From contig JAAENB010001018.1 in assembly GCA_024224995.1 (NCBI GenBank), positions 1 to 35,614 on the forward strand: a stretch of DNA of 35,614 nt, read 5' to 3'. Both the position numbers and the translations under genes were made by a program. The DNA comes from a bacterium. Lineage in GTDB: Bacteria; Spirochaetota; UBA4802; UBA5550. Each line of letters begins with the position of its first letter. Within the stretch, counting starts at the first letter, position 1. This document shows, one piece after another, positions 1 through 35,614 of the stretch. The notes beneath the pieces are model-generated. The model ran no database searches and was not told the DNA's origin. It saw only the letters and a list, made by a program, of their open reading frames with translations.

Positions 1-1
1 A

Positions 2-5176: not shown

Positions 5177-5246
5177 AATTAAATAGAGTATTAAATTTAA
5201 TAATAATATTTAGAATATTTAATAAATATTCAATAGGGAGGAATGT

Positions 5247-5696: not shown

Positions 5697-5713
5697 AATT
5701 TTAAAAATGTTCT

Positions 5714-5750: not shown

Positions 5751-5795
5751 GGTCTTTATTTATAAAATAAAAATAAAAAAGCGATATAATTACTT

Positions 5796-7553: not shown

Positions 7554-7591
7554 AAGGTCATTTCAGTTTTTTATTCCTTGAGTTTAAAAGT

Positions 7592-7644
7592 ATACAGCAG
7601 GAATGTGCAGGCAAAAGCATATTTCCTGCACATTCCTGCTGTAT
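7592..7644 (+). other. Perfect 20-bp hairpin between sheath 2 and tube 2
   Basis: ATACAGCAGGAATGTGCAGG at 7592-7611 is exactly reverse-complemented at 7625-7644, around a 13-base loop. No T-run follows, so it is not a standard terminator. It lies 40 bases before tube 2 and 29 bases before its Shine-Dalgarno. It could be an mRNA 5'-stabilising or processing hairpin, or a repeat-element remnant. Confidence 0.8.
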
Positions 7645-7684
7645 GCTTTATGTTGCAGTTATTTTAGTAAAAGGGAGGTAAAAT

Positions 7685-8125: not shown

Positions 8126-8265
8126 TATTTTTTAAGATTTGTGTTTACTTTTCCTCAATTTTTTTGTATATTAAATAATATACCTGGATATGCTGGTATC
8201 TATATTTGTATTATTTGTTCGTGTTGAGGAGAGAGTTTATCTGATTAGGCAAATGGGAGGTTAAT

Positions 8266-8886: not shown

Positions 8887-8943
8887 TTTTTTCTATAATT
8901 CTAAGCCCCAGTTACAGAAAAGATCATAGCAAGGAGTATTGTT

Positions 8944-9993: not shown

Positions 9994-10015
9994 TTGGACA
10001 AAGAGGAGGTCATAA

Positions 10016-18004: not shown

Positions 18005-21000
18005 ATGGATTTAAATAAACTAGTTAATGATTTTGATTCAGCCCTGGAAAAGTTGAGAGAGCTGAATCCCTATCTTAAAGCAAAACAAAGTGCCAATCGC
18101 CGCATCATTTCTGCTGAGCGACCCCATAAATTACAAAAAGTCCTTGTAGCCAACCGGGCCGAAATAGCCCGGCGGTTTTTTTTGGCATTACACGAGGAGT
18201 CCATTCATTCTGTAGCGGTTGTAACAGAGGAAGACAATGGGCAGTCCTGGTATGAATTTGCCGATGAGGTTGTCTTTATTGGGGATAAGGATAATTATAA
18301 CAATATGCAGGTTCTCCTTGCCGCGGTTGTCCTGGTAAAGGCAAACGCCATATATACCGGTTATGGTTTTGTTTCCGAAAATGCCCAATTTGTGAACATT
18401 CTTAAAATAATCTCATCGTTATATAACCATGAGATTATATTCATGGGACCTCATTTTGAGACCATGCGTATTGTGGGAGACAAGAGCTGCGCGCGTGAAC
18501 TGGCCCGGGAACATAACATTCCTCTTTTTAAAAGTTCCGGTATTTTTACCAGTCTCGACCGTAAAGCGGTGCTAGAAGAAGCTGATGAAATAGGATACCC
18601 GGTTATGGTAAAACCAAGCGCCGGGGGCGCTAAGGGAATGTTCCCGGCTCGTACGGAATCGGAACTGGAAGATGCTATTAAGTCGAGCTGGAGTATTGGT
18701 ACCGAACTGTATGGGAACGGGAGTTTTTATCTTGAGAAATATATTAAAAACCCCATACATATGGAAGTGCAGATTTTTAACGGCTGGGCAATAGGAATCC
18801 GGAAATGCGCGGTTCAGAGAAGGAACGAGAAAATTATTGAAGAAAGCGGGCATACGTTTTTAAAAGATTACCTTTTTCTTCATCTTCTGGCAGCAGCAGA
18901 AAAAATGGCCCTTGTTTCCGGTTACTGCGATGGTTGTGGAGCCGGTACGATTGAATTCCTTATTGATCGTGATACAAATATGTTTGGATTCCGGGAGATG
19001 AACACCCGGCTCCAGGTAGAGTATGCTGTTACGGATCAATCTCTTGGAATTGATCTGGCCAAGTGGCAAATCCTCTATTATGATGGCAGAATAAATGATA
19101 TTGGCAGGCAGGGAGATCTTAAGTACCGTATCGCCGGAAGGAATCATTCCATAGAATGCAGGATATACGCGGAAGATCCGGAGAATGATTATCTTCCTTC
19201 TCCGGGAACAATTAAGGAAATGGATCTGCCAACCTTTAACGGGGTACGAAGCGATTTCGGGTTTGGGGAAGGAGATAGTATTCTCCCCATGTACGATCCC
19301 ATGATCGGTAAGATCATTGTAAACGGTTCAAGCCGGAAAGAAGCATTGATCCGCCTTGAACGGGTGCTGCAGGAGGTATATATAAAAGGGGTAAAAACCA
19401 ATATCAACCAGCTGCTGCACATTATCCAGCATCCCGATTTTCTTGCAGGCACCTACACGAATAACCTGCTAAGAGATAATGAAATTCCGGCAATTACCAA
19501 AAGAAAAAAGAGCGATTACCCCTTTACCGAACGAAGAGTCAATAAACATATTATTTTTGGCGCCTTTACCGAGTATATCCGTTTATTGCACCAGGCAATT
19601 AATGAATTTATGGTTCTTATCTCTGTTGATGGGTTCCTGAGCAGTTCTTCCGACTTAGCGGTTCCCTGCCGCTTTACTCTTGAATATGACAATACCAGTT
19701 ACCTTGTTGAATTTATACAAACATCTTTTGATACCTTTTACGCCTATGTTGATGGGATTTTTAACGGCAAAATGCTGTTAAGTTCATTCAATGACAGGAG
19801 TGATGATTTTCTTGTTCTCTCCGGTAACCGTTCATACCGGATCCGGGTAGACCGGCATCTCGCGTATAACATTCTCAGGATGAAAGATGAGACGAATAAA
19901 ATGCGGTATTACCGCATGACGATTATGCCGGAAGGGCTCGAAGACCAGGAAAAAGAAGGAGTAATCCGGTCTCCGTTCCAGGGCAGTTTTGTATCGTTTT
20001 CCAGAGAAGATATCGCCGTAGGGGATATTGTTGAAGCTGGTGAGCCAATGCTTGTACTTTCTTCAATGAAAATGGAAACAACCATCTGTGCCCCGGTTTC
20101 GGGAAAAATTTCCTTTATAATAGAAGATGGCGACATGTCCCGGCTCCAGGCTCTGAAAACCAGTGACGGAAGGGTTATTGGCAAAAGTATACAGGAAGGA
20201 ACATTACTGGTTAAGATTGAAAGTACTCCGGACGGGGAACAAGAGCCGGGAAAGGAAAACCGGGAGACTGCTGTTCCTCTTCACCCGTCAGCACATACTC
20301 TTTTTGATATTTTATTCCGGGAAGATTTTGAGTTCCTGGTTATGGGTGACATTGACCGGCAGCGGAAACTTATTGGAGACTTGCTGCTTGCGTCATTTTT
20401 GGGCTTTATTCAACAACCGAATATCATAAAAAAAATAAAAAAACTCCTGGACCGGATTCCTCTTGAGAGGTGGAAAGAACTCATTACGGAACCGGTTATT
20501 GACCTTATTATTGTTCTCATCACTCATTACATAAATATACGGAGACTCTTTTCTCCGGAAATCTCAGAAGCAGGGATATCATTTCCCGAAGAACTTGATC
20601 AATATATTGCCCGGTGGCAGAATTCGGATATTACGCTTTCGCCCGGATTTAGTGAACTTATAAAGGCACTGCTTGCGACCTATGGGGTACATGAAAACCT
20701 TACCAGGCCGGAAGTTGAAAAAGTATTAATGCAGCACATGTTTTTTCTTTTTAAAATTTCGTACCAGTTTTCCCTGGAACACGCGGAAATCATTAAAAAT
20801 ATCGTATATATTATTCCCCGGATTCATCCCCCCGCAGTTAAGCTTTTCAGCACCCTGAAAGAACTGTTGAAATTTGAACAGTCGGAACTGGATGATTCTC
20901 TTGGTAAGTTTATCAAAAAAATTATTTCCCGGCATCTGCCCGACAGTACAAAATATCTTTATTCTAACTATGAAGGAAGCAGTATCTCTGATGTCATGTA

Positions 21001-23905
21001 CTGCCTGTTTGGTGACCTGGGCAGTGAGAATGAAGAATTTCTTCTTAATATGTGCCGTGAATCGATTGAGAATCCCGGCGAAGCTCTTATCCCGGAAAAC
21101 AGTACTCCTGCGGTTGCTCAAGAACTGGAAAAAAAACTTGCGGTGCTTCAGAAACGGTATTCCATTAAGCTTCTTTTTTCCCCGCTTCTTGATATTCTTG
21201 TGTATCGTCTTGAATCAATTAAGGATAGAAAACGATGTTATATTGCGTTCTCCTTTGTTACCTACGGCGAGGGTGAAGTGAACCGGGAAGAAAGTATTGA
21301 AGGAGCTATTGAAAATACTGCTGCCATAGTTTCGGCATACCAGGCTGTTGAAAAATGTGAAAATAACTGGATTGAAATAATACTTACCGGGAAAAAGGTT
21401 GTGTTCAGCATCGAAGAGAAAGATATAAAGAACCCCTCTTCTCTCGATTACCCGGAGCTGAAAAGAGTTTGTTCTTCGGCTCTTACTTTTTTCGATGATA
21501 GTTTGCAAATAAAAGGTATTCTCGATTGTGAAACCGAAGTGTGTTCCCCCGGTCCCCTGAAACGGAAAAAAATTCTTTTCTACCGGAAGAATGACTCTAT
21601 TGTCCTGGATCTTCTTCAAGAAACGGAGGAGCGGAATCCTTATTATGCCGCTGAAAATACCGCCGGGCTTAATCAGCGTCTTTTTAATAAGAATAAATGG
21701 CCTGTTGATATCTGGGCTGCCGAATGCTTTGATCCCGGATCGTTAAAAGAGATTATGATAGAATCGATAGACGGGACTATTAACCCGGACGAAAGTGAAG
21801 GCCCGGACCTGGTTGGCGGTAAAATGCTGCATGGAACTATTGGCGGGGAAGAAGCCTGTTTCTATATGAAAGATTCCAGGATCAACGGCGGAGCTACCGG
21901 GAATAAAGAAGGGCTCAAATATACTGCTGCCGCGTATATTTCTTATTTAATGGACTGGCCTTTTTACGTTTGGAACGACAGCGCCGGGGCCAATATAAAA
22001 GAAGGGGTTGTTTCTCTTAATCGGGGAGCCGAAGGATTTATGCTCAATACCCTGCTTGTGGAACGGGTGACGTACGAAAAATTCAGGAGATATACAACCC
22101 ACGCAAACGACCCCGTACTTCGTGAATTGTTTCATGAGCTCGATAGTCGATTTTCCTTTCCCGAAAAACCGCTCTCCGCGCGAGGGGAACGCTTCCAGTT
22201 TATCGTTGTTGGTATTGGTTCTTCCGCCGGTCTTGATGTTTACGGAGCCAGCCAGGCCGCGATTCAACTGATGCTCGATTCGGAACAGTCCTACCGGGTT
22301 CTTACGGGTTCGAACGTTATTAAAACGGTTATTGGGGAACAGATTGAAAATTATGATATTGGCGGAGCCAAAATTCTGGGGCAATGGACCGGTATTGTTG
22401 ATCTTATTGCTATGGATAAGGTCCATTTAATCTGCTCAGTCCATAAACTGCATCGTTTTTTCTGTACGTCGGCGGCTGCCGGTTTCCGGGAAGGAATACT
22501 GCGGAGTTCTACCAGATATGAAGAAGTCGAACAACTCGAAGAAGAACATAATAATCGCGATACGGTCGTTATTAGTGAATCCATTATACGGAATAATGTG
22601 GACTATGGGGAATTCTGGACCTTTAAAGACCAGTATTATGCTTCGGGTTCCCTCCTGGGAGGATTCGCAACAATTGGGGGCAGGCGGGTTCTTGTTATGG
22701 GAGCTCGTACTCATGCCGGTATCAGGTCGTTCCCTTCTATCGTAAAAGCCCGTGACCTGCTGCGGATCGCGCATAGAACAGTATCGCACCAGGTCTTTAT
22801 TTTTGGAAAGAAGTGGCAGGAGGTGCCCGATTATCATGAAAATATGAGTATGCGGTCCAGGTACGATCTTATGAATACCATTGGGCAAAATACCGGGATT
22901 CGGATACATGTTATTACTGATGTGGAAGGGCTCTCGTATCACGATGTTAACAGCGCAGCGGATGTGATTATTTTTATCAACGATAAGGAAACGTCTCCGT
23001 TTCAGACTAAATTTATTGAGAACAATGCTTCGTTTATTGTTGCTTCATTCGAAGAAGCCTTTGACTGCGCGTATGGTATTATTGATTTACTGAATTCCCC
23101 GGAAGAGCTGCCGGTGGTTGTTCCCAAAACACCGCCCTCTGTTCCTGAAGAACCGTCTCAACCCTTTGACATGATCGAGTCGGTCATTGAGCCCGTATTC
23201 GATGAAGGGTCTTTTGTTGAGTTTTTCCGGGAGATGAATGACCCCATGCAGGGACCAAATTTAATTACCGGGCTTGCCCGGCTCGATGGGACGTGCGTGG
23301 GAATTATCGCGGACCAGCCGCTTCAAAAAGGGGGAGGAGCCGACGCCCTGGGTACGGAAAAGTTTCGTTTTTTTACGGAATTTTTAAACGCGAAAAATAT
23401 TCCCCTGGTAATGTTGTCGAACTCTTCGGGCTTTGTTCCCGGTTCCAACCAGGAACGGTTCAGGATCCAGGCTATTGGCGCCGAGTCCCTGGACGTGAAT
23501 ATTCTTGGGCAAATACCGGTGGTTTCGGTTGTGCTGAACCAGGTCTATGGCGGCAGGCTCATACATGCTTTTAATAAATTCCTGCGGCCGGGAATTGTAA
23601 ACCTGGCTCTCGATAGAGCTATTATGGCTGTTATTGGTGTTGATGCGGCGTTTGATCTTTTTCATCAAAAAGAATATAACCGGCTTCTCAGTGAAGGGAA
23701 AGAGAAAAAAGCAGAGGAACTGCGTACTACGTTTTGTGAGGAATTCCTTGAAAAAGGAAAAGCGGCAAATGATGCCGTTCATACTGATCTCATCGACTGG
23801 CTCATTCCCGATGTTGCCGGACTACGCGGGCATATTATCAAAGGCATGAAACTTGCTGTTGAACGATGCCGGGTGTTTACTGCAAATGAAATGAGGATGC
23901 TTTAA
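18005..23905 (+). CDS. Single-chain acyl-CoA carboxylase (BC-BCCP-central-CT fusion)
   Basis: A 1966-residue protein uniting all parts of a biotin-dependent carboxylase. Residues about 40-500 are biotin carboxylase (KVLVANRAEIARRF, GYGFVSENAQFV, VQRRNEKIIEE, EMNTRLQVEY, ECRIYAEDP). About 505-640 may be a BT-like linker. About 650-740 is the biotinyl domain with SSMKMET, the biotinylated lysine being Lys689. About 760-1180 is a mainly helical central region. About 1190-1966 is carboxyltransferase with two crotonase halves (GGATGNKEGLKYTAAAYISY; MIESVIEPVFDEGSFVEFF, SNSSGFVPGSNQERF, GGRLIHAFNKF). Glu331, Asn333, Arg335, Glu339, Lys276 and Arg386 match key BC residues, but the usual His in QRRH is Asn274, the usual QVEH His is Tyr340, and the glycine loop (SAGGAKGM) is shortened. 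Substrate (acetyl-, propionyl- or longer acyl-CoA) cannot be told. The start has only a weak GAAG upstream. Confidence 0.9.
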   Translation: MDLNKLVNDFDSALEKLRELNPYLKAKQSANRRIISAERPHKLQKVLVANRAEIARRFFLALHEESIHSVAVVTEEDNGQSWYEFADEVVFIGDKDNYNNMQVLLAAVVLVKANAIYTGYGFVSENAQFVNILKIISSLYNHEIIFMGPHFETMRIVGDKSCARELAREHNIPLFKSSGIFTSLDRKAVLEEADEIGYPVMVKPSAGGAKGMFPARTESELEDAIKSSWSIGTELYGNGSFYLEKYIKNPIHMEVQIFNGWAIGIRKCAVQRRNEKIIEESGHTFLKDYLFLHLLAAAEKMALVSGYCDGCGAGTIEFLIDRDTNMFGFREMNTRLQVEYAVTDQSLGIDLAKWQILYYDGRINDIGRQGDLKYRIAGRNHSIECRIYAEDPENDYLPSPGTIKEMDLPTFNGVRSDFGFGEGDSILPMYDPMIGKIIVNGSSRKEALIRLERVLQEVYIKGVKTNINQLLHIIQHPDFLAGTYTNNLLRDNEIPAITKRKKSDYPFTERRVNKHIIFGAFTEYIRLLHQAINEFMVLISVDGFLSSSSDLAVPCRFTLEYDNTSYLVEFIQTSFDTFYAYVDGIFNGKMLLSSFNDRSDDFLVLSGNRSYRIRVDRHLAYNILRMKDETNKMRYYRMTIMPEGLEDQEKEGVIRSPFQGSFVSFSREDIAVGDIVEAGEPMLVLSSMKMETTICAPVSGKISFIIEDGDMSRLQALKTSDGRVIGKSIQEGTLLVKIESTPDGEQEPGKENRETAVPLHPSAHTLFDILFREDFEFLVMGDIDRQRKLIGDLLLASFLGFIQQPNIIKKIKKLLDRIPLERWKELITEPVIDLIIVLITHYINIRRLFSPEISEAGISFPEELDQYIARWQNSDITLSPGFSELIKALLATYGVHENLTRPEVEKVLMQHMFFLFKISYQFSLEHAEIIKNIVYIIPRIHPPAVKLFSTLKELLKFEQSELDDSLGKFIKKIISRHLPDSTKYLYSNYEGSSISDVMYCLFGDLGSENEEFLLNMCRESIENPGEALIPENSTPAVAQELEKKLAVLQKRYSIKLLFSPLLDILVYRLESIKDRKRCYIAFSFVTYGEGEVNREESIEGAIENTAAIVSAYQAVEKCENNWIEIILTGKKVVFSIEEKDIKNPSSLDYPELKRVCSSALTFFDDSLQIKGILDCETEVCSPGPLKRKKILFYRKNDSIVLDLLQETEERNPYYAAENTAGLNQRLFNKNKWPVDIWAAECFDPGSLKEIMIESIDGTINPDESEGPDLVGGKMLHGTIGGEEACFYMKDSRINGGATGNKEGLKYTAAAYISYLMDWPFYVWNDSAGANIKEGVVSLNRGAEGFMLNTLLVERVTYEKFRRYTTHANDPVLRELFHELDSRFSFPEKPLSARGERFQFIVVGIGSSAGLDVYGASQAAIQLMLDSEQSYRVLTGSNVIKTVIGEQIENYDIGGAKILGQWTGIVDLIAMDKVHLICSVHKLHRFFCTSAAAGFREGILRSSTRYEEVEQLEEEHNNRDTVVISESIIRNNVDYGEFWTFKDQYYASGSLLGGFATIGGRRVLVMGARTHAGIRSFPSIVKARDLLRIAHRTVSHQVFIFGKKWQEVPDYHENMSMRSRYDLMNTIGQNTGIRIHVITDVEGLSYHDVNSAADVIIFINDKETSPFQTKFIENNASFIVASFEEAFDCAYGIIDLLNSPEELPVVVPKTPPSVPEEPSQPFDMIESVIEPVFDEGSFVEFFREMNDPMQGPNLITGLARLDGTCVGIIADQPLQKGGGADALGTEKFRFFTEFLNAKNIPLVMLSNSSGFVPGSNQERFRIQAIGAESLDVNILGQIPVVSVVLNQVYGGRLIHAFNKFLRPGIVNLALDRAIMAVIGVDAAFDLFHQKEYNRLLSEGKEKKAEELRTTFCEEFLEKGKAANDAVHTDLIDWLIPDVAGLRGHIIKGMKLAVERCRVFTANEMRML

Positions 23906-24905
23906 AGACTACCCATACCGGTTTTCCCGGCAAGAGCTGAAGGCTTTCTGCCGAGTAATGAGTAACATCGCTGGTGAGGGTCATTTCCGCGATATCTACA
24001 TCGAGATGGACCTTGCCTGGTTCAGTGGACGTTATCATCCGGGTAATAACCCCCTGCAGCGTATTAAGCGCGGATATGTCTTTTGGCTTTTCCAGGGTAA
24101 TCATAATGTCCGGTGGATTCAGTATTACAACAGCATCTTTTTCCGGAAGGTCGGGAACCCGGATTTGCTGTCCGTCGGAGAGTTCTTTCACCCAGAGGGA
24201 ATCGGTTTCATAGATCCAGGGACCGTGAATAAGGTTTTCCCTGCCCGAGCCTACGATTTTTCCTTCGTAGAGCTTGCTAATCTCATCGGTAACTTCATTT
24301 AACCATATAAGATCGTGGCTTGCGATAAGCAGGGAGGTATTATACTGTTCCCTGAACGTGATTATTGCCTGCTTTATTAATGACGCGCTCAGGGTGTCTA
24401 CACTGGCTGTTGGTTCGTCGAGCAGCAGAACAGAAGGGGTCAACAGGAAGCGTGAGGCAAGGCTTACCCGCTGGGCTTCCCCTCCCGAAAGTTCGTTCCA
24501 TTTCCGGTGCGCGAATTGCCCCGGGGAGAGGCCTACTATGTCAAGCGATTCATACACACGCATCCGCATATTGGTTTTGTCTCCCCGTACCTTCAATCCA
24601 TACGCGATATTTTCATAAACAGACCGTTTTAGCAGTACGGGCTCTTGCAGGAGCAGGGTTACTTTTTTTCTCAGCGGGCCGAGATTGTTTTTGGTTTCCT
24701 GTCCGTTGAATAAAATTGTTCCTTTTTCCGGCTGCTCTACAAATGAGAGCAGCTTAAGCAGGGTCGACTTCCCGCACCCGTTAGGACCAACAAAACCCGT
24801 TGATGAACCGGGAGCCAGCTCCAGCTCCGGTATATCCAGAACAAGCCGGTTCCCGTAATAATACTTGAGGTCCTTTATTGTGTATAGGGGTGTTGTTGAA
24901 GTCAT
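23877..24905 (-). CDS. tupC: Tungstate-type ABC transporter ATP-binding protein
   Basis: A 342-residue ATPase read from the ATG at 24905, 11 bases after the permease stop; the frame extends 18 codons further into the permease gene but that part (HKLVFIYYKKK) looks like read-through. Walker A is GPNGCGKST (residues 40-48). The Q-loop, LSGGEAQRVSLASRFLL signature and Walker B VLLLDEPTAS follow, then a switch His in IASHDLIWL. A C-terminal MOP/TOBE-like region (ISALNTLQGVITRMITSTEP, VWVVFKASSFHL) resembles that of molybdate importers. It powers oxyanion uptake with the adjacent permease and binding protein. Its 3' end overlaps the end of the convergent carboxylase gene by 29 bases. Confidence 0.9.
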   Translation of the reverse strand: MTSTTPLYTIKDLKYYYGNRLVLDIPELELAPGSSTGFVGPNGCGKSTLLKLLSFVEQPEKGTILFNGQETKNNLGPLRKKVTLLLQEPVLLKRSVYENIAYGLKVRGDKTNMRMRVYESLDIVGLSPGQFAHRKWNELSGGEAQRVSLASRFLLTPSVLLLDEPTASVDTLSASLIKQAIITFREQYNTSLLIASHDLIWLNEVTDEISKLYEGKIVGSGRENLIHGPWIYETDSLWVKELSDGQQIRVPDLPEKDAVVILNPPDIMITLEKPKDISALNTLQGVITRMITSTEPGKVHLDVDIAEMTLTSDVTHYSAESLQLLPGKPVWVVFKASSFHLQ

Positions 24906-24916
24906 ATCATCATTGC

Positions 24917-25606
24917 CTATCGTTTTCTTTTTATAATAGATAAAAACCAGTTTATGCAAAAAGCCATAAAGATCAGGACCAGGGCCAGGGCGATGCCCAT
25001 GGCAAACTGGCCTTTTCCTGTTTCAAGGGCTATGGCTGTTGTAATGGTCCTGGTGTGCCATTTTATATTCCCGCCTATCATCATCGATATTCCCACTTCC
25101 GAAATGGCTCTGCCGTATGCCGTAACAATGGCCGTAAGGACCGCGTACCGGGCCTCAAGAAGACTGGTTATGGCTACCTGGTGTTGTTGGGCTCCAAGAG
25201 TAAGAAGATTTGTTCCTATCCTGGGATCGAGACTCTCTATTGCTGTGGCCGTAAGTGAAATTACTATGGGAGTTACCAGGACCATCTGGGCCAGGGAGGT
25301 TCCGGGAATGGTGAACAAAAGACCCAGTTCTCCCAGGGGCCCCATGCTGGAAATAAACGCGTATACAATGAGTCCAACCGCTACCGTGGGCAGGGCAAGC
25401 AGGGTGTCTGCCAGGGTCCGGAGGGCTCTTTTGCCCGGGAACTCAAAGTAACCCAGCATAAATCCCGCGGGTATTCCTACAAGGAGACTTCCGCATATTG
25501 AAAGGGTAGATATTTTCAGTGTGTTGATTATGGCTGAATAGGTTTCCTGATCTCCGGAAAAAAGCAGTTCCAGCGCGTTAACAAATCCTTCGCTTATATA
25601 TCCCAT
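24917..25606 (-). CDS. tupB: Tungstate-type ABC transporter permease
   Basis: A 229-residue inner-membrane permease with about five or six membrane segments (STLSICGSLLVGIPAGFMLGY, LLALPTVAVGLIVYAFISS, MVLVTPIVISLTATAIES, MGIALALVLIFMAFCINWFL). The ATPase-contact EAA loop is EARYAVLTAIVTAYGRAISEVG near residues 150-172. MMIGGNIKWHTRTITTAIALETGKGQFAMGIALA is typical of TupB/ModB-like permeases, TupB especially. AAGGAAC precedes the ATG. It is separated from tupA by 346 bases containing PR-A copy 3, which is unusual for a three-gene transporter operon. Confidence 0.92.
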   Translation of the reverse strand: MGYISEGFVNALELLFSGDQETYSAIINTLKISTLSICGSLLVGIPAGFMLGYFEFPGKRALRTLADTLLALPTVAVGLIVYAFISSMGPLGELGLLFTIPGTSLAQMVLVTPIVISLTATAIESLDPRIGTNLLTLGAQQHQVAITSLLEARYAVLTAIVTAYGRAISEVGISMMIGGNIKWHTRTITTAIALETGKGQFAMGIALALVLIFMAFCINWFLSIIKRKR

Positions 25607-25952
25607 AGTTCCTTTTTTTTTGATTTTTTTAAAAAGAATTTCTTAAAGTGTCATTGTCCGAATTATTCATTTAATTGAAACAATTTTTTGTTGTTCAGTA
25701 TAAAAAGGGCACGGTTTATATCTTCAGAATATTAAAACGATATCAGGGAATTAGTCCCGGCTTTCCGGAACAGGAGCCACGGATGGCGACGCCTATGTGC
25801 AATACAGGAAGTATTATCACATAGGTGGAGGAAAGCCGGGACTAATTCCCGAGCGCACCGAATAAATTAAACAGCTCCCGGGTAACGCAGCGCTAGCTGC
25901 GCCTCTTACCGCCGATTACCGATAACCCGGCCCCCAGGGGCCACCGATCACC
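25607..25952. other. Gene-free 346 bp inside the tup operon
   Basis: Between tupA and tupB. Bases 25607-25735 are AT-rich, with a near-palindrome TTCATTTAATTGAA (about 25668-25681) that could be part of a promoter for tupBC. Bases 25736-25859 are PR-A copy 3. Bases 25860-25952 hold GC-rich small hairpins (CGCAGC/GCTGCG at 25886-25901; GGCCCC/GGGGCC at about 25929-25942). No gene seen. Confidence 0.6.
25736..25859 (-). repeat. PR-A repeat, copy 3 (inverted)
   Basis: Read on the minus strand it has the order of copies 1 and 2: a gap-filled GGTGCGCTCGGG start, an outer arm of the type GGGAATTAGTCCCGGC, an inner hairpin CCTATGTG...CACATAGG, GGCGTCGCCATCCGTGGCTCC, the matching arm GCCGGGACTAATTCCC and CCCTGATATCGTT. 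The arm bases again differ from the other copies in a paired way. Confidence 0.9.
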
Positions 25953-26798
25953 TTATTTCGCGTTAGGCGTAAAAAGCTGTTTGTTCATGAGTCTGAAATC
26001 GGCAATGAGTTTTTGTGCTTTTTCAGAGGCAAACCATTTGGTGAGCTTTCCTGCCAGTTCGTATTTTGCCTTTTTGCATTTTGCTTTATTTATGGAAATA
26101 ATACTGTACTGATTATACAGGGATTTTGCTCCTTCCACCAGGACTACCAGGGGAGGATTGCCTTTATGATTGGCTTCGTACTTAATGAATGTTCCCCGGT
26201 CGGCTAAGGTGTAACCCTTTCGTTCGGCAGCCATATTGATGGTGGGAAGCATTCCCTGTCCTGCCTGGAGATACCATTTTTCCTTGTCCGGAACAGTGAA
26301 GCCGGCTTCTTTCCAGAGAGATATCTCTTTTTTGTTCGTTCCGGAATTGTCCCCCCGGCTTACGAATGTAATCTTTTTGGCTGCTGTTTCTTTGAAGAAA
26401 TCAGTTATGGATTTTCCTTTTACACCGGCAGGATCATCTTTCGGGCCGATTATCACAAAGTCATTGTACATGATCTGTGTACGGTCAACTCCATGACCGG
26501 CATCAACGAATTTTTTTTCAGCGCCCGGAGCATGGACAAAAAGGATATCAACATCACAATTTTCTCCCAGCTTAAGGGCTTTTCCCGTACCAACGGCAAC
26601 CCATTTCAGATCAATAAGCAGGTCCGACTTAATGATTGGTTTCAGTTCGTCAAGAAGCCCGGTATTGTCCGTACTTGTTGTTGTGGCCATTTTAAGAGAT
26701 TCAAGTGTTCCTTTACGGGTACACATTGTTGCGCTGATTGCTCCCGCAAGAACTGCAATACAGAGCACTGAGGCAATTGATTTAATTGGTCGTTTCAT
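25953..26798 (-). CDS. tupA: Tungstate ABC transporter substrate-binding protein
   Basis: A 281-residue periplasmic binding protein. The N-terminus is a signal peptide (MKRPIKSIASVLCIAVLAGAISA); a Cys at residue 26 is in a poor lipobox. MATTTSTDNTGLLDELKPII (about residues 37-56) is the TTTS-type oxyanion-binding motif of TupA, and SRGDNSGTNKKE near residue 147 and GMLPTINMAAERKGYTLADRGT are further TupA marks. It delivers tungstate (possibly molybdate) to TupBC for Mo/W enzymes. AGGAG lies upstream of the ATG. It is first in the minus-strand tup operon and divergent from the porin gene. Confidence 0.93.
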   Translation of the reverse strand: MKRPIKSIASVLCIAVLAGAISATMCTRKGTLESLKMATTTSTDNTGLLDELKPIIKSDLLIDLKWVAVGTGKALKLGENCDVDILFVHAPGAEKKFVDAGHGVDRTQIMYNDFVIIGPKDDPAGVKGKSITDFFKETAAKKITFVSRGDNSGTNKKEISLWKEAGFTVPDKEKWYLQAGQGMLPTINMAAERKGYTLADRGTFIKYEANHKGNPPLVVLVEGAKSLYNQYSIISINKAKCKKAKYELAGKLTKWFASEKAQKLIADFRLMNKQLFTPNAK

Positions 26799-26902
26799 AA
26801 TTGTTTCTCCTGTTGTGTGGGTATCGTATAATTATTGAATATTGGATCATTTGTTCAGTGTTCAAAATTAGTCAACAAAATTAGCAAAATAAGTACCGTG
26901 TA

Positions 26903-26946
26903 TTACAAAAAGTTACAAAAAATTACTCTGGTTTACGAAAAATTAT
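26903..26946. promoter_or_regulatory. Five TTAC/TTAT units at exact 10-bp spacing in the divergent tup/porin promoter region
   Basis: TTACAAAAAG, TTACAAAAAA, TTACTCTGGT, TTACGAAAAA and TTATTGCG start at 26903, 26913, 26923, 26933 and 26943. The 10-base phase and A-runs suggest bent DNA or a tandem operator on one helix face. It lies about 105 bases before the tupA start and about 85 bases before the porin start. No regulator gene is in the window. Confidence 0.5.
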
Positions 26947-27029
26947 TGCGTTTCCAGGGAATCAAAAGAAAGGTGTTCTTAGATAAAATAATTATACGCA
27001 CTTTTGTGCCTATTCTATGGAGGAATTTC

Positions 27030-28106
27030 ATGATTATGAAGAAAAAGATACTGGTAGTGCTGCCAGTGCTCATGGCTGCCCTGGTTATAAGCGGAAGTCT
27101 TATGGCTCAGGATACTACACCGGCTCCCGCTGATGCAGCAGTTGAAGAACCTAAAGAGAAAGATCCCATTGTTAAGGTTTCGGGACTTCTTTATGCTGAG
27201 TATAAGTATCAAGCCGAACACGGTGATACCAACGACGGTAAAAACGCTTTTGATTTATCCAGGTTTTACCTGACAGTAAAATCAGATGTTACTAAAAATT
27301 GGACCCTCAGGTTTACTTCGGATATAGATGTATTTTCAAATGACAGCTACGAGGTTTTTGCAAAGTATGGGTACATTCAGTATAAAGACAATTTTGGCGC
27401 TGTTTCTCTTAAAACGCAGGTTGGCCTGGTGGCAACTCCAATGGCCGGTTTCATGAACAGTGCTATGGACACTGTCTGGATTCGTGGTACCCTTCTTGGT
27501 TCTACCGGTGATGTTCTGAGCGGTTCAATCGATTCAACTGCTGACCTGGGAGTAAAAGTTGACGTGAGTATCATGAAAGTGCTAACACTGACCGGGATGG
27601 TTTGTAATGGTGAAGGATATAAAAAAGTTACTCTTAGTGATCAGGGAAAAGCATTTTATGGAATGGCTTTAGTTAATCCCTTTGCTGATTTGTTTCTTTT
27701 CGGTTATTTCCAGAGAGATATGGGGGATGATAGTCCTTCAAAAAATTACAACCAGTATTATGGCGGCGGTGCCGCGTGGAAGAGCGGTCTTATCAAAGCA
27801 GGGGCTAATATTTCAATGAGTACTATTGTTGCTGCTGATGTTGAAAGAAGTTCCGGTATGCTTATTGACGGCTGGCTCCATATGAATCTTGATTCGGCAA
27901 TTGGTCTTCCCATACTTATATATGGCAGATGCGCCTATGGCAAAGATGATAAAAGAGCTGCAGATAAAAAGAATACTCTTATTGGCGGTGGAATTGGGTA
28001 CAAATTCAATAAATACATCCGTACCCTGGCTATAGTGGACTACCTGATGAAAGAAGATTCATACAATGATAAAGTTTTCTACGTCAAAGCCGAAGGTAAT
28101 TTCTAA
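27030..28106 (+). CDS. Outer-membrane porin-like protein
   Basis: A 358-residue protein read from the ATG at 27030, which has GGAGG at 27019-27023; the frame is open 65 codons further upstream but that part has no ribosome site and no secretory start. Residues 1-27 are a signal peptide (KKKILVVLPVLMAALVISGSLMAQ). After a Pro/Ala/Glu-rich linker come alternating amphipathic strands (VKVSGLLYAEYKYQAE, DLSRFYLTVKSDVTKNWTLRFTSDIDV, GAVSLKTQVGLVATPM) and a last strand ending KVFYVKAEGNF with C-terminal Phe, the usual signal for barrel insertion. It resembles phosphate-selective/OprP-type porins in style, but I cannot name the family. It heads a unit with the second TupA-like gene and may pass the same oxyanion. 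Confidence 0.8.
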   Translation: MIMKKKILVVLPVLMAALVISGSLMAQDTTPAPADAAVEEPKEKDPIVKVSGLLYAEYKYQAEHGDTNDGKNAFDLSRFYLTVKSDVTKNWTLRFTSDIDVFSNDSYEVFAKYGYIQYKDNFGAVSLKTQVGLVATPMAGFMNSAMDTVWIRGTLLGSTGDVLSGSIDSTADLGVKVDVSIMKVLTLTGMVCNGEGYKKVTLSDQGKAFYGMALVNPFADLFLFGYFQRDMGDDSPSKNYNQYYGGGAAWKSGLIKAGANISMSTIVAADVERSSGMLIDGWLHMNLDSAIGLPILIYGRCAYGKDDKRAADKKNTLIGGGIGYKFNKYIRTLAIVDYLMKEDSYNDKVFYVKAEGNF

Positions 28107-28136
28107 GTTTTTTTATTATCACAACGAGGTTTATAA

Positions 28137-29030
28137 ATGAAGAAGATTAATATTCAAAAAGGTTTGGCCCTGTGCGGCATGGCTCTTTTGGTTAGTCTCA
28201 TGCTTGCTGCCGCGGGGTGTAAAAAACCTGCCAAACAAGAAACGGTAAGTTGTAAAAAAACTTTCGGCACGGGTGCTGCTGTTCTCCGTGTTGCAACGGG
28301 CAGCCCCGGTGAACTGGGTATGCTGGAAGCCCTGGCAAATGTTTTTAATAAAGAAAATAAAACATCCCTGTGCTGGGTCAAAGCCGGCTCCGGGAAATCG
28401 CTCAAGCTCCTGAAAGGGAAGAAGGTTGACGCGGTTATGGTTCACGCGCCTAAAGGCGAAAAACAGGCCGTAAAAGACGGCTGGGCTATTGAACGGACTC
28501 TTCTTGGTTCCAATGAGTTTTATATTGTTGGACCAAAAGACGATCCTGCCGGAATTAAGAGCGCAAAAAGCGCTGCGGAGGCCTACAAAAAAATCGCGGA
28601 CAAAAAAGCCAATTTTCTGTCCCGGGGCGATAATTCCGGCACAAACAAAAAAGAGCTCGCTATCTGGAAAACGGCTGGTGTATCTCCTTCGGGAGAGTGG
28701 TATATTATCACCAAAGCTTTTATGATGGCTACGCTGAAAAAAGCCAATGAAGTAAAAGGCTATTTCATGACCGACAGCAGTACCTGGGTTGCCGGTAAAA
28801 AAGCTCTGGATAATCTCGCGGTTCTCTATACCGGGGACCCGTTCCTGGTTAATACCTATCACGCCCTGTGCCAACCTGCGGGCGCTGTTCCCGAAGCTGC
28901 AGCTGCGGCTAAATTTGTGAAGTTCCTGGCGTCAAAAGAAGCCCAGGAATTGATCGCTTCGTATGGCAAAGACCTGTATGGCGAGGCAATGTATACTGAT
29001 GCAGAGTACGCGAAAAAATATGATCATTAA
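28137..29030 (+). CDS. TupA-like substrate-binding lipoprotein with altered binding motif
   Basis: A 297-residue lipoprotein: signal MKKINIQKGLALCGMALLVSL and lipobox LAAAGC (Cys28). It is clearly a paralogue of tupA, sharing KSLKLLKGKKVDAVMVHAPKGEK, YIVGPKDDPAGIKSAKS, LSRGDNSGTNKKELAIWK and a C-terminal KFLASKEAQELIASYGKDLYGEAMYT. The first ligand loop differs: where TupA has ATTTSTDNTGLL this protein has ATGSPGELGML, so Thr/Ser ligands are lost. A WYIITKAFMMATLKKANEVKG block replaces the TupA second loop. It may bind another oxyanion or small ligand. It lies 30 bases after the porin gene with an ACGAGG ribosome site, so both are probably co-expressed, divergent from tupABC. Confidence 0.85.
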   Translation: MKKINIQKGLALCGMALLVSLMLAAAGCKKPAKQETVSCKKTFGTGAAVLRVATGSPGELGMLEALANVFNKENKTSLCWVKAGSGKSLKLLKGKKVDAVMVHAPKGEKQAVKDGWAIERTLLGSNEFYIVGPKDDPAGIKSAKSAAEAYKKIADKKANFLSRGDNSGTNKKELAIWKTAGVSPSGEWYIITKAFMMATLKKANEVKGYFMTDSSTWVAGKKALDNLAVLYTGDPFLVNTYHALCQPAGAVPEAAAAAKFVKFLASKEAQELIASYGKDLYGEAMYTDAEYAKKYDH

Positions 29031-30839: not shown

Positions 30840-31373
30840 TCAGTCATCCATGCCAAAGAGCTCCCCGCTGCCGGATCGCTTGCTGCCTGCCATCTTCAAA
30901 TCGCCGCCGCAGGACGGGCAGGATTCAATATCATCCCGTATTGGGTAATCATTGCCGCAGTAGGGGCAGACTTTTGTGATCATCCGCATCTGCAAAGCGG
31001 GAAAAATATAACAGGTCCCGTTGTCCCGGGTTTCCTTCTCCGCTGTTTTTGAGGCAATAAGTTCATTCAGCCGGAACTCGACATCAGGAGAATCGCCGAA
31101 CTCCGCGAGGATCGTGTCTTTCCACAGGATACCGTTATTCTTTGCCGCGAGTTTTAGCATACGCCTGCGCATTCCCGCAGGGCTGGCCTCTATTCCCTGT
31201 CGAAAAAACCGTATTCCAAAAATGAGTTCCACCACTCCCGATCCCAACAGGATAATGCCGATAGTTGCCCGTGACGGTACCGATTTTGACGCGATGAGAA
31301 ACAAGATCCCCAACACCGATGAGAGTATCCCCACTACGGATAACGCTGCTCCCGCTATTACTTTCCCGGTCAT
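30840..31373 (-). CDS. Membrane zinc-ribbon protein
   Basis: A 177-residue protein of unknown function read from the ATG at 31373, whose first base is shared with the upstream TAA (TAATG). A GTG at 31379 is a less likely start. Residues about 5-60 form two membrane helices (VIAGAALSVVGILSSVLGILFLIA, ATIGIILLGSGVVELIFGIRFF). A soluble part (RRRMLKLAAKNNGILWKDTILAEFGDSPDVEFRLNELIA) has a winged-helix-like feel. The C-terminal zinc ribbon is CPYCGNDYPIRDDIESCPSCGG. Last gene of the operon with the HSAC-tail protein and radical SAM enzyme; translational coupling to the previous gene suggests a shared job. No family name can be given. Confidence 0.72.
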   Translation of the reverse strand: MTGKVIAGAALSVVGILSSVLGILFLIASKSVPSRATIGIILLGSGVVELIFGIRFFRQGIEASPAGMRRRMLKLAAKNNGILWKDTILAEFGDSPDVEFRLNELIASKTAEKETRDNGTCYIFPALQMRMITKVCPYCGNDYPIRDDIESCPSCGGDLKMAGSKRSGSGELFGMDD

Positions 31374-32638
31374 TACCACTGCTCCGTTGTTGTTCTATCC
31401 AGCTCATCTCCCATTTTAAGAAAAAACTGTTCAATATTGGTATCGGTAAAAACCGATTCAGTGTAGGTTTTAAAAGCTGAGGAGAACTCCACCGGGTGGA
31501 GATTGCGCGTTTCTATTTTTATCTCCCCTTCCAGTTTGTTTATATTTCCGGCAAACTCCTTACTAAAACCGGGCACGTCAATTGAGAGTTTCGAAAGTGA
31601 GGCGTATTGGTCCTGTGAACCTTTTACCTTTTTTACGCTTTCCCGAAACGCGGTTATTGCTTTTCTTATTCCATTCATCAGTGCCAGGAAGGCGACAGTC
31701 TCTTGTACCCCTGCCAGGATACTGCTATAGACCTCGTTCAGTTCCCCTACTTCAATAAGGCTGCCCATGATATCGGCCCTGTCTTCCGCGAAGCGCTCGC
31801 CGCAATAGTTGCAGAAAAATTTGTTCTCACTATTGTCCGATTTACATTTCCCGCAGGAGCTTTGTTTTTCCCACTCTACCTTTTTAGTTAAATATTTTTC
31901 ATCTCCTTTAAGCCGGGCCAGGGTTTCAACAAAAGCCGCTTTTTTCACCAGGATTTCCCGGTTTTCTTTCAGGTTTTTCATTTTTTCCGTTATCATTGAA
32001 TAATCGACCTGCACACTGTTCCAGTCATCTTTAAGCGTTCCCTCTTCTTCGGAATATTTGTCGAACTTTTCCTGCCACTGTTCCCGTATATCTTCAATCT
32101 TTTCAACAAGTTCGTTCCGCAGACCTGTTATTTCATCTTTCATTTTCTGGATCTTTCTCATACGGAAAAAATTCGACACGAATCCAAATCCCGTATTGAG
32201 TTCGTCTATTTCCTTGTTATATACGGCGATCTTTTCTTCAAGGTTTGCCACATCGTCTTTAAGCTTCTCCTCTTTATTGTCGAGCCGTATATTATTTCTG
32301 CGGATCTTTTTTATATGCTTTAACCTGCCCGTATCCTGATCCGCGAACTCGCTTTTTAATTTTTCTCTTTTCTCGGTCAGTTTTTTATAATTTTCCACAA
32401 AGGCTTTATCCTGCTTCTTCACCTCTTCCTTATAGAACCGTTCTACAGCATCGGGAAATTCTCCCGGCGCGGCAAAAAACTTCTCCTGAAGGAATTCTAT
32501 TTCACTATTCCTGGTTTTAGTTACATTATTTAAATTCCTGTTAAAATACTCCTGCACGTCGTTCAACTTTTTTATAACACTGTCGAGCTGTTTGCCGCCA
32601 TCATCCAAAAACTCTATCATCGAAGCAAGACTACCCAT
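31373..32638 (-). CDS. Coiled-coil zinc-ribbon protein
   Basis: A 421-residue cytoplasmic-looking protein of unknown function. Residues about 15-265 are heptad-rich, highly charged coiled coil (for example KLTEKREKLKSEFADQD, LKDDVANLEEKIAVYNKEIDEL). A zinc ribbon, CGKCKSDNSENKFFCNYCG, follows near residue 275, and the C-terminal part (VYSSILAGVQETVAFLALMNGIRKAI) is helical. No signal peptide. The ATG overlaps the end of the radical SAM gene by eight bases, with AAGGGGG upstream. Being placed between a modifying enzyme and a membrane protein of the same operon, it may be a scaffold or cofactor partner; that is inference. Confidence 0.75.
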   Translation of the reverse strand: MGSLASMIEFLDDGGKQLDSVIKKLNDVQEYFNRNLNNVTKTRNSEIEFLQEKFFAAPGEFPDAVERFYKEEVKKQDKAFVENYKKLTEKREKLKSEFADQDTGRLKHIKKIRRNNIRLDNKEEKLKDDVANLEEKIAVYNKEIDELNTGFGFVSNFFRMRKIQKMKDEITGLRNELVEKIEDIREQWQEKFDKYSEEEGTLKDDWNSVQVDYSMITEKMKNLKENREILVKKAAFVETLARLKGDEKYLTKKVEWEKQSSCGKCKSDNSENKFFCNYCGERFAEDRADIMGSLIEVGELNEVYSSILAGVQETVAFLALMNGIRKAITAFRESVKKVKGSQDQYASLSKLSIDVPGFSKEFAGNINKLEGEIKIETRNLHPVEFSSAFKTYTESVFTDTNIEQFFLKMGDELDRTTTEQW

Positions 32639-34034
32639 TTTCTACCCCCTTTACACCCTTCGACTTTATCCGTACGCGCTTCTCCACATTCCAGAGCGCG
32701 TTCCTCAGCCGCGGACTCTCTCCGCGAACCGCTTCTATCTCTTCAAAGGAACCGGCCCGTTCCCAGTAAAGCGGGCAGGCTCCGGCGCACAATTCTTTCA
32801 TATCACACTTCTTACACACCGGCGGAATATACCGTTTTTCCCGCCAGTAACAGGCCGGATCGGAATTCCACACATACTCAAACGAAGATTTCAGCAAACT
32901 CCCAATTCCCCGGTCAAAGCTGGAACAGGGCAATATATCTCCCGCGGGATTTACCGAAAGCAGCCCCGATACACAGGCGCATGATTTCGATCCCAGGCCG
33001 TAATCTACCGGGTTAAACAGGCAATAGGGTGTGGGAGAATACCAGACAAATTTCACCCCAAGGGTTTCACAGTAATCTATCACCGGCTGCACAATGCTCC
33101 CAATAGTGCTGTACCCTATTTTAATATTGTCATTGTCACAGGCTATCCCTGTATTAATTATCATATTCATGGATAGATAGGGCGCGTCGAACTCATCTTT
33201 GATAAATTTCACCAGGGGAAAAAGAAAATCCTTATTTTTTTGACAGATCGTTGTATTGGTATGTGTATACACTCCCGCCTCTTTGAGGTTCTTTATTCCC
33301 GCTACACAGTCCGCGTGCGCGCTGCTGTTCCCGGTAATTTCATTATGAATGGTTTCATTATGGGATTCCAGGCTCACCTGGGCCGATTTCAGCCCTGCCG
33401 CGGAGAGGTCCCGTACCAGTGACACATCGCTGCATCGTATCCCGTTTGTTATAAGGTTTGTTCTCATGCCCAGGCCGTTCGCGTACGCTACCAGCTCCGG
33501 TAGATCCTTCCGCAGGGTGGGCTCTCCACCGGTAAATGAGATCGTGGGCACATGAGCATCCCGGTGTATCTTTTGTATTACCTCTTTTACTTCCGCTGTT
33601 GCCATTTCCCGGAACTCTTCTCCCCGGTAGGGGCTTGAGGCATAGCAGAAATCGCAGCGGTTCTGGCAGCGGTAGGTGAGCGCTATTTCCGAAAGAACGG
33701 GATATTTCACGCTCCCGGGATCATAGGGAATATTTTCTATCATGCAGGCGCTGCCGTAATCCTCCTGCATAATGGCGTTAATACTTCGTACCAGGGCCGT
33801 TAGATCACGCGTTACTTGAGCCCGGGGCTCGTTATATTTTTCCGAAAGCAGGACTACTGTTTCATTGGCGGTTTTCCCCTCTTCGTAAAGCATCCCCAGC
33901 ATTTCAAAGGCGCTATCATTCAGGTGCTGGATCTTGTTTGGCCTGATTATCATGAGCCGGTCTACCTGCCGCAGGTATACCACGTCTTTGGTTGATCCTA
34001 CGAATGAATCTATGTCATAAAACGGTTGGTTCAT
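32631..34034 (-). CDS. Radical SAM/SPASM enzyme with N-terminal PqqD-like recognition domain
   Basis: A 467-residue enzyme. I place the start at the ATG at 34034, which has AGGAG at 34043-34047 with eight bases between; the frame runs 40 codons further upstream but that part (MPLSLRSLSLSLGLPL...) is just the HSAC repeat DNA read in another frame. Residues about 15-90 (LRQVDRLMIIRPNKIQHLND, AFEMLGMLYEEG, LSEKYNEPRAQVTRDL) look like PqqD/RRE, which binds RiPP leader peptides. The radical SAM core has Cys123-x3-Cys127-x2-Cys130 (CQNRCDFC) and SFTGGEPTLRKDL. The C-terminal SPASM region has CACVSGLLSVNPAGDILPC and Cys407-x2-C-x5-C-x3-C420 (CKKCDMKELCAGAC) for auxiliary 4Fe-4S clusters; a final SPASM Cys is not obvious. 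Members of this class install thioether or C-C crosslinks in peptides. The likely substrate is the tail encoded 11 bases upstream. Confidence 0.9.
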   Translation of the reverse strand: MNQPFYDIDSFVGSTKDVVYLRQVDRLMIIRPNKIQHLNDSAFEMLGMLYEEGKTANETVVLLSEKYNEPRAQVTRDLTALVRSINAIMQEDYGSACMIENIPYDPGSVKYPVLSEIALTYRCQNRCDFCYASSPYRGEEFREMATAEVKEVIQKIHRDAHVPTISFTGGEPTLRKDLPELVAYANGLGMRTNLITNGIRCSDVSLVRDLSAAGLKSAQVSLESHNETIHNEITGNSSAHADCVAGIKNLKEAGVYTHTNTTICQKNKDFLFPLVKFIKDEFDAPYLSMNMIINTGIACDNDNIKIGYSTIGSIVQPVIDYCETLGVKFVWYSPTPYCLFNPVDYGLGSKSCACVSGLLSVNPAGDILPCSSFDRGIGSLLKSSFEYVWNSDPACYWREKRYIPPVCKKCDMKELCAGACPLYWERAGSFEEIEAVRGESPRLRNALWNVEKRVRIKSKGVKGVENG

Positions 34035-34045
34035 AACATCGTCTC

Positions 34046-35614
34046 CTAAAAGCTCGACACGCATGCCGAGTGGCAGGCTGAGTGGCAGGCGGAGTGGACG
34101 CAGGCGGAGTGGCAGGCCGAGTGACAGGCTGAGTGAACGCAGGCTGAGTGGCACGCGGAGTGGCAGGCCGAGTGGCAGGCGGAGTGACAGGCGTCGTAGC
34201 TGAACGAGGAGATGTTTTCCGAAAAGTTTTTTACCGATTCTTCCACTTTTTTAAGGTCCGGCGGTGAGAATAGATTTTCAATATTTTCTACAATCTGTGA
34301 CGATACTCCTTCCACCTGTTCTACTATTCCCTCGGAAAAATCCTGAATACTTTCGCCAATGGACTCCGCTTTTCCGGCTGTTATTGTTTCGTAAAAAACA
34401 GCTCCCTCTCCCCGGTCCCTATCTACAATGGCCTGTTCCATAAATTCCCGCACTCCCGTGTCGAACTCATCATTAAGCGCCATCCAGGTATGATGTTCTT
34501 CAAAATAGGGCTTTTGTTCATTATACAGACTTCGCTGCTTAAACACGCTCCAATGATCGTCGATCTTTGAGCGGTACACTTCCGCGGTTTTATTAATATC
34601 GGTTTTCCAGACCTTGCCCTGCATGGATCGCGATAAGGACTTTACAATCAAGGGAATCTTGTTTTTACTCAGGGTTCCGTCTTTGGCTATGGCATCAAGA
34701 AACATCACTTCATAGGGTTTCAGCCCTTCCCTCTCTTTTTCAAGGATCTTTACCTGGAGCGGGTTCCGGTTTATTATATCAATATATTTTTTATTATACA
34801 GGCCCATTACCAGGAGCTTTATCGCTTTTGAGGGCTTGTTTAAAAAGACCGCTGCTTCCATTGGCTCAAGATTTTCCGCGCTTCCGCTTGTTTTAAACAC
34901 CTCTACCTGTATCTCAGGCGCGAGATACTCCACCTTCCGTTCAAATTTCTTTTTAATCCCCGGGTGAAAAGAGAGCAGTTTGAGTAAAATCGCAACCAGT
35001 CCCGCAAGGAGATAATAGCAGGCTCGAAAAGGAACAATAAGGGCGTTAAAACTAAAAATATACCCTGAAGTGATACCGAATTTTTTTCGTCCTCCGGGAA
35101 AAAATATTTTATTAAACAGGTCTATCTTCATTACAACGCCGATTAAATACGCCAAAAGACCTATTGTGGCTATTTCTATTCCAAGATAAAAAAAGTTTAA
35201 AAAGTACCCAATAACAATGTTGAGTACAAGAAAAATAACCACATCTATCGCGAACTCCGCGTCCGTCGAGGAGAGTTCCATCTTTGCCAGGTCCGTAAGC
35301 AGGGTTTTTGCCGCGAAGAAGGTGGAGATATCTACCTTCGCGGGTTCTATTGCCACGCCCAGGGGAATTTCCGGGATATAATCGTGTTCCCAGTGGTTTG
35401 ACTGCGCGGAGATATCAATATAGGGATAAAAAACCTTTTTACTGTTATCATCATAATAATCTCCCTCTTTGCTCATGCGTTGAACAAATTCCCATTGCTC
35501 AAAGAGGCCTGTTGTTTCCGGTGTAACAAAAAGAGGGAGTTCTTTATCACCGGGTTTTATATCTCGAAACCCTCTTCTGTATTCTCCCTGAAAGGGAAAT
35601 AGAAGCTTTACCCT
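34046..35614 (-). CDS. Polytopic membrane protein with C-terminal HSAC (Cys/His) repeat tail, N-terminus beyond the window
   Basis: The frame is open to the right edge, giving 522 visible residues; an ATG at 35476 is internal, since the 46 codons before it read as protein (FRDIKPGDKELPLFVTPETT). Two to four membrane helices (FAIDVVIFLVLNIVIGYFLN, LGIEIATIGLLAYLIGVVM, FRACYYLLAGLVAILLKLL) are followed by a soluble part with EPMEAAVFLNKPSKAIKLLV, reminiscent of the winged-helix part of DUF2207-like proteins (weak impression). Then comes an amphipathic stretch (SIGESIQDFSEGIVEQVEG, VEESVKNFSENISSF). The last 50 residues are DAC-(HSAC)4-V-(HSAC)3-V-(HSAC)3-V-SSF. The TAG stop overlaps the ribosome site of the radical SAM gene. 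Possible roles are a crosslinked envelope appendage or a metal-binding tail. Function unknown. Confidence 0.85.
   Translation of the reverse strand, partial: RVKLLFPFQGEYRRGFRDIKPGDKELPLFVTPETTGLFEQWEFVQRMSKEGDYYDDNSKKVFYPYIDISAQSNHWEHDYIPEIPLGVAIEPAKVDISTFFAAKTLLTDLAKMELSSTDAEFAIDVVIFLVLNIVIGYFLNFFYLGIEIATIGLLAYLIGVVMKIDLFNKIFFPGGRKKFGITSGYIFSFNALIVPFRACYYLLAGLVAILLKLLSFHPGIKKKFERKVEYLAPEIQVEVFKTSGSAENLEPMEAAVFLNKPSKAIKLLVMGLYNKKYIDIINRNPLQVKILEKEREGLKPYEVMFLDAIAKDGTLSKNKIPLIVKSLSRSMQGKVWKTDINKTAEVYRSKIDDHWSVFKQRSLYNEQKPYFEEHHTWMALNDEFDTGVREFMEQAIVDRDRGEGAVFYETITAGKAESIGESIQDFSEGIVEQVEGVSSQIVENIENLFSPPDLKKVEESVKNFSENISSFSYDACHSACHSACHSACHSACVHSACHSACHSACVHSACHSACHSACVSSF
34058..34195 (-). 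repeat. In-frame 12/15-bp tandem repeats encoding the HSAC tail
   Basis: Ten HSAC units; Cys codons at spacings of 4,4,4,4,5,4,4,5,4,4 residues (11 Cys, 10 His). A Val after units 4, 7 and 10 makes a 13-residue (39-base) super-repeat. Ser codons vary among TCC, TCG and TCA and Cys among TGC and TGT, so units are not fresh duplicates. Confidence 0.95.

Follow-up and report, generated by a model that had tools for sequence, protein, structure and literature searches.

The window analysed here is the whole 35,614-nucleotide stretch of contig JAAENB010001018.1 (assembly GCA_024224995.1), which derives from a member of the Spirochaetota. At its end, two adjacent genes encode a membrane protein that finishes in a Cys- and His-rich repeat and an enzyme with PqqD-like, radical S-adenosylmethionine (SAM) and SPASM domains. 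We propose, with a probability of about 0.7, that this enzyme is a dedicated maturase of its neighbour's C-terminal Cys repeat, stapling the tail with thioethers on the membrane protein. The proposal builds on the architecture of the two proteins, the linkage of their genes, their co-occurrence across whole genomes and the matching of tail kind with enzyme clade, all of which were shown by computation. The system also exceeds the two genes described in an earlier reading of this DNA (the initial annotation), since four genes are involved here and a second kind of tail exists elsewhere.

The repeat tail and the adjacent enzyme

All features of the system lie on the minus strand. The tail gene (34046..35614) is represented by a frame of 522 residues that is still open at the contig end, its 5' end lying beyond the contig; this is the C-terminal part of a DUF2207-like membrane protein with 76 protein matches, and its length agrees with the more than 520 residues reported initially. 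The DUF2207_C match to this frame scored 20.5 bits, below the cut-off of 33. Residues 474-522 (34049..34195) form the (HSAC)n repeat, DACHSACHSACHSACHSACVHSACHSACHSACVHSACHSACHSACVSSF, the proposed substrate of the enzyme, with conserved residues and free codons; the translation contains 11 Cys and 10 His, as had been counted. The placement of Cys at every fourth residue, also described before, holds along the repeat but fails at two Val insertions that break the HSAC units, where the spacing is 5. The stop codon of the tail gene (34048-34046) is overlapped by an AGGAG resembling a ribosome site (34043..34047; sequence TAGGAGACGATGTTATG), and 11 bases separate this stop from the ATG of the enzyme gene at 34034, which corresponds to the coupled arrangement noted earlier.

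The enzyme (467 residues; 32631..34034), defined by Pfam matches, conservation and a structure model, carries the three domains that had been ascribed to it, all of them above their Pfam gathering scores (PqqD 2.2e-5, Radical_SAM 2.9e-24, SPASM 2.4e-8). The profile and the conservation values were derived from 118 homologues of more than 440 residues, taken from the 120 best of 2595 matches. The radical SAM motif CQNRCDFC (CxxxCxxC, residues 123-130; 33645..33668) is invariant in 118/118 of these closest homologues, and each of the eight Cys of the SPASM region delimited by Pfam (C338-C420; 32775..33023) is kept in 102-118 of the 118. From the canonical SPASM pattern, a Cys would be expected beyond the last of these positions, but the window enzyme has none after C420. 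The PqqD-like domain (residues 15-90; 33765..33992), a putative recognition element (RRE) for ribosomally synthesized and post-translationally modified peptides (RiPPs), scored 25.1 bits against a cut-off of 23.4. This part was modelled with high confidence as three strands followed by three helices at residues 20-89, and the RRE-bearing maturase SuiB aligns with the enzyme model from residue 9 onward. The solved structures closest to the enzyme model are headed by the RiPP maturases SkfB, at the top, and SuiB. None of the 25 NCBIfam matches listed for the window enzyme attained its cut-off.

In the structure model of the window tail protein (mean predicted local distance difference test, pLDDT, of 67.8), a soluble domain precedes the tail (residues 245-400; 34415..34882; pLDDT mostly 80-97) and is homologous in both kinds of tail protein. 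Hydropathy indicated membrane stretches at residues 116-168 and 189-216 (34967..35269), where helices were modelled at 119-162 and 189-216. The N-terminal part is supplied by P0035, an N-terminal fragment on an 8.1-kb contig that has 47 residues in common with the window protein, at 100% identity; because of this overlap, a complete protein of the window type would have about 920 residues. The N-terminus of P0035 is signal-peptide-like, and its DUF2207 score was just under the cut-off (24.1 versus 24.4 bits). In a Pfam scan of homologues, the cut-off of the DUF2207 N-domain was reached by P0001 and P0020, P0039 was under it, and no match to this domain was obtained in P0004, P0018, P0038, P0074 and P0023. 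Tail proteins with an uninterrupted repeat have, by hydropathy alone, a signal-peptide-like start and a single membrane helix followed by basic residues, and from these residues the tail of such proteins is expected in the cytoplasm, where the SAM enzyme works. In the window subtype, basic loops follow both hydrophobic stretches, and hydropathy would allow the tail on either side. A DUF2207 protein of S. mutans has been studied for stress tolerance and biofilm (excerpted text of PMC10457818).

Linkage, co-occurrence and kinds of tail

A degenerate tail pattern, consisting of three CHxA units and a Cys, was searched in one genome per species and occurred in at least 116 loci. Family-type tails account for 100 of the 116 loci listed, and 92 of these match a membrane profile that was built with the tails cut off beforehand and with P0035 excluded; the other 8 are short frames, mostly cut by the locus edge, and one of these eight, L071, whose units read CHWA, probably does not belong to the family. 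Among the 16 remaining loci, 13 are CHRA/CHLA/CHPA-like frames lacking both a membrane-profile match and the enzyme, and three (L037, L042 and L054) have a membrane-profile match at the locus edge, with the enzyme present in L042 and L054. The tail loci listed span about 30 phylum-level groups, including Thorarchaeota, Lokiarchaeota, Heimdallarchaeota and Thermoproteota, although most of the genomes are metagenome bins in which single taxon assignments may be wrong. The pair is also carried by two named isolates, Desulfobulbus alkaliphilus DSM 24258 (L035) and Herbivorax sp. ANBcel31 (L109), which makes the system testable at once. The tail was present in 74/76 of the protein matches to the window membrane protein, a figure biased by search words drawn partly from the tail; the two exceptions are the fragment P0035 and P0057, whose tail is degenerate. 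Across the 92 loci, the tail residues are constant and the codons vary, Ser being encoded by all six of its codons, which indicates selection on the protein and not a fresh DNA repeat.

Linkage was counted over those family-type tail loci, 85 in number, for which 1.5 kb or more of downstream sequence was available. The initial annotation had stated that its reading would be refuted if homologues of the tail protein regularly occurred with no radical SAM gene close by, and this was not what we found: the enzyme lies on the same strand at the end of the tail gene in 75/85 loci (74 by script, plus L090, whose stop-to-stop frame overlaps the tail gene) and divergently upstream in three Asgard loci (L001, L053 and L106). 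An in-frame enzyme start falls at −20 to +60 bases from the tail stop in 68/72 pairs. For the seven loci that lack such a linked enzyme (L004, L020, L061, L071, L093, L101 and L102), a family enzyme with 38-51% identity was detected in the genome in 6/6 of those searched, that is, all except L071; in the genome of L061, the match spans query residues 158-431 only. In the Asgard genomes of L020 and L093, a frame matching the membrane profile divergently adjoins the enzyme. Downstream of the tail in L004, L061, L101 and L102, the genes scanned encode enzymes of other kinds, a transporter or unidentified products, and in these genomes the enzyme would thus act in trans. L004 and L010 are two tail genes of one Myxococcales bin, which has a single strong enzyme match, located beside L010.

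The co-occurrence of both genes was examined in whole genomes of two phyla. The tail pattern was present in 8 of 400 Chloroflexota genomes, of which G003, G017, G142 and G388 read CH[S/D]A units and the others read CHRA, CHAA, CHRA/CHGA or CHGA; with up to four candidates scored per genome, enzyme matches above 480 bits occurred in exactly the first four, the next best match having 269 bits. Among 296 Spirochaetota genomes, searched with the L033 enzyme (E up to 1e-60, up to five candidates scored per genome), the pattern was found in 12 and the enzyme in the same 12, where the two always share a contig and lie no more than 0.5 kb apart; in one of them, G596, two stops lie inside the enzyme match. 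Simple counting gives probabilities of 9.5e-10 for Chloroflexota and 1.3e-21 for Spirochaetota, both of which overstate the case because the genomes share ancestry and the seed genomes (G003; G406 and G407) were chosen for their tail; without the seeds, the independent counts are 3/399 and 10/294, respectively.

The 25 weaker Chloroflexota enzyme matches (208-269 bits) constitute a sister clade. In 25/25 loci (L126-L131 and L137-L155), these enzymes adjoin a homologous membrane protein that ends in (CA)nG(CA)2GGGR, its frame being split in L143. Among the 120 closest of 4369 protein matches, 119 carry the CA tail in one of two near-identical forms. In most CA operons, the main enzyme is followed by a further radical-SAM-like match of smaller length; the only one scanned (L136:146-1318) is devoid of CxxxCxxC. 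A small protein with CxxC pairs precedes the CA tail gene in the five stretches examined. G017 encodes both CHSA and CA systems. In P0038 and P0056, from Promethearchaeota, CHSA/CHSN repeats are followed by CACACACAGGGW, so that both tail motifs are joined in one protein.

Tail kind follows the enzyme clade. A tree of the enzymes from 81 loci holding both genes comprised 58 uninterrupted CHSA tails, 18 interrupted CHSA tails, which is the kind found in the window, and 5 CA tails. The three kinds require two changes on this tree, the minimum possible; the uninterrupted and the CA groups are each set apart from the rest by a branch with full support, and the interrupted group taken alone requires two changes, with three Asgard enzymes branching apart. 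Because Spirochaetota are represented in each of the two CHSA groups, and Chloroflexota in these and in the CA group as well, the matching of tail and enzyme does not merely reflect species descent.

Proposed modification, alternatives and related systems

The idea that the enzyme modifies the tail, advanced in the initial annotation, is supported by the linkage, by the co-occurrence and by the way in which tail kind tracks the clade, and we consider it very probable that the enzyme acts on the tail; that its product is a thioether has about even odds. According to our proposal, the membrane protein would insert with its tail facing the cytoplasm, the PqqD-like domain of the enzyme would dock onto the tail protein, and deoxyadenosyl radical chemistry, together with the SPASM clusters, would link the sulfurs of the tail Cys to carbons of nearby residues. 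A flexible, thiol-rich tail would in this way become rigid and cross-linked and would remain, uncleaved, on the membrane protein. As a guess, it could belong to a membrane regulator in the cell and respond there to metals or to redox state.

The composition of the tails bears on the acceptor residue. Among 539 C-x-x-x-C units of CHSA tails, His occupies position 2 in 502, Ser and Asp occupy position 3 in 355 and 128, respectively, and Ala occupies position 4 in 509. Ala precedes Cys in 612/682 cases of the CHSA set and in 610/849 of the CA set, and it follows Cys in 849/849 of the latter. If the chemistry is shared by both clades, His, Ser and Asp would not be needed as acceptors, since CA tails have none of them; these tails hold Cys, Ala and Gly only, which would leave one of the three, with Ala (or another Cys) as the likeliest acceptor. 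Ala is known to serve as an acceptor in both ruminococcin C1 and thuricin CD (excerpted text of PMC8172795); the same excerpt reports that AlbA and PapB reject Ala when it replaces their native acceptors, which weighs against our assignment. A broader version of the proposal, possible but rather doubtful, is a membrane-tethered RiPP-like system in many bacterial groups and Asgard that would perform radical stapling at Ala-Cys units. The Cys sulfur would be joined to the alpha- or even the beta-carbon of Ala, the beta-carbon version representing a radical route to lanthionine, and the permanently cross-linked tail would be part of a protein rather than a secreted product.

The enzyme might instead act on the tail by a reaction other than thioether formation, such as epimerisation, the formation of carbon-carbon links or the conversion of Cys to, for example, formylglycine. 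We regard this as unlikely: Cys alone recurs in each unit of either tail kind, which is what would be expected if it donates the sulfur, and the epimerase-type maturase EpeE stands well below thioether makers among the structural matches, a rank that should be read as weak evidence. It is still less probable that the tail is used as it is, as a metal or iron-sulfur strip, while the enzyme modifies something else in the same pathway, for instance a small molecule or the CxxC proteins encoded downstream. Cys/His repeats do bind metals, and partner genes with CxxC pairs adjoin the subtype of the window; unlike the enzyme, however, these partners have homologues in only 13 (the 421-residue gene) and 10 (the 179-residue gene) of the 116 loci listed, the tail kind changes exactly with the enzyme clade, and the CA tails have no His.

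That the repeat is a DNA minisatellite, open in frame by chance and beside an unrelated neighbour, would fit the 13 loci with frames of the CHRA, CHLA, CHPA and CHAA type, as well as four of the eight Chloroflexota pattern genomes, which are of this minisatellite-like sort. For the family to which the window belongs, the fixed residues with free codons, the spread over many groups and the exact co-occurrence of the tail with the enzyme make this explanation hardly conceivable.

The proposed modification of a membrane-protein tail has partial counterparts among known systems. The sactipeptide and ranthipeptide maturases SkfB, CteB and PapB resemble the window enzyme in combining an RRE or PqqD domain with radical SAM and SPASM domains, but their substrates are small precursor peptides. 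In the His-Xaa-Ser system, a radical SAM enzyme has a His-containing repeat as its target; kinship with this system was not borne out, since the HxsC model scored 73.1 bits versus a cut-off of 267.9. The ACGX (TIGR04340) and Cys-every-fifth (NF038107, CefB) systems, named in NCBIfam, pair radical SAM/SPASM enzymes with Cys-repeat peptides, which are their substrates. They differ in that the TIGR04340 model scored 67.1 bits on the window enzyme (cut-off 400), the CefB model scored 61.3 bits on the L109 enzyme (cut-off 600), and the repeat is another one, that of the window system being the end of a membrane protein. QhpD, the enzyme of the quinohemoprotein amine dehydrogenase system, acts on a soluble subunit that is not known to carry a repeat tail or membrane anchor. 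QhpD is similar to the present case in that radical SAM thioethers are placed on a ribosomal protein and not on a small precursor, and PapB installs six Cys-Asp thioethers on one peptide (both from the excerpted text of PMC8172795).

The closest published idea is the pairing of TIGR04222 proteins with MNIO enzymes, in which a membrane protein whose C-terminal tail contains Cys is the putative substrate of an adjacent RiPP-type enzyme (Antoine et al. 2025, PMC12452194, in part). As presented in that part, the enzyme is an MNIO and not a radical SAM protein, the tails are Ser/Gly-rich and predicted to be periplasmic, and MNIO genes are absent from a third of the genomes with TIGR04222 genes; the term "radical SAM" is present there solely in the reference list. 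TIGR04222 itself matched the window protein faintly, in its soluble part, with 13.4 bits against a cut-off of 43, and the tail proteins of L035, L109, L106 and L136 had no NCBIfam match at E 0.01. Among the open-licence papers searched, we found no report of a radical SAM enzyme paired with a Cys-tailed membrane protein. If the proposed modification takes place, peptide maturation by radical SAM enzymes would reach beyond small precursors to protein ends that are anchored in the membrane, and it would do so in lineages where this chemistry is little studied, namely Asgard archaea, Chloroflexota and many uncultured groups. The two tail kinds with their matched enzyme clades amount to a natural experiment on the residue that accepts the Cys sulfur.

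Downstream genes and other features of the window

Four minus-strand genes lie head to tail at the contig end, every one of them overlapping its successor or ending almost at its start. Directly after the enzyme, the 421-residue gene (31373..32638) encodes a charged protein that contains CxxC pairs, probably forms a coiled coil and has only weak Pfam matches; its stop is overlapped by the start of the 179-residue gene (30840..31379), whose product has a hydrophobic N-part and a zinc-ribbon-like C-part (Zn_ribbon_3 24.9 bits, cut-off 27). In the 13 loci with a homologue of the 421-residue gene, it stands just after the enzyme; the tail is interrupted in 12 of them and cut off in L054. In the uninterrupted-tail loci, a clustering of neighbours, read by eye and unannotated, revealed no further gene common to over 16 loci; the tail and enzyme genes and the frames opposite them made up the larger clusters. 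The initial annotation had seen no protease or exporter nearby, which stood for the two downstream genes, where Pfam gave no such match; the neighbours at other loci were clustered, not annotated.

Other parts of the window were read from translations only. Positions 1-10657 (plus strand) hold contractile-injection-like genes, with baseplate J-like, two sheath-like, tube-like, LysM and spike-like products. A single frame of 1966 residues at 18005-23905 (plus strand) resembles a fused biotin-dependent carboxylase. Finally, 23877-29030 contains genes like those of a tungstate/molybdate-type ATP-binding cassette (ABC) transporter (ATPase, permease and binding protein), together with a porin-like protein and a second binding protein.

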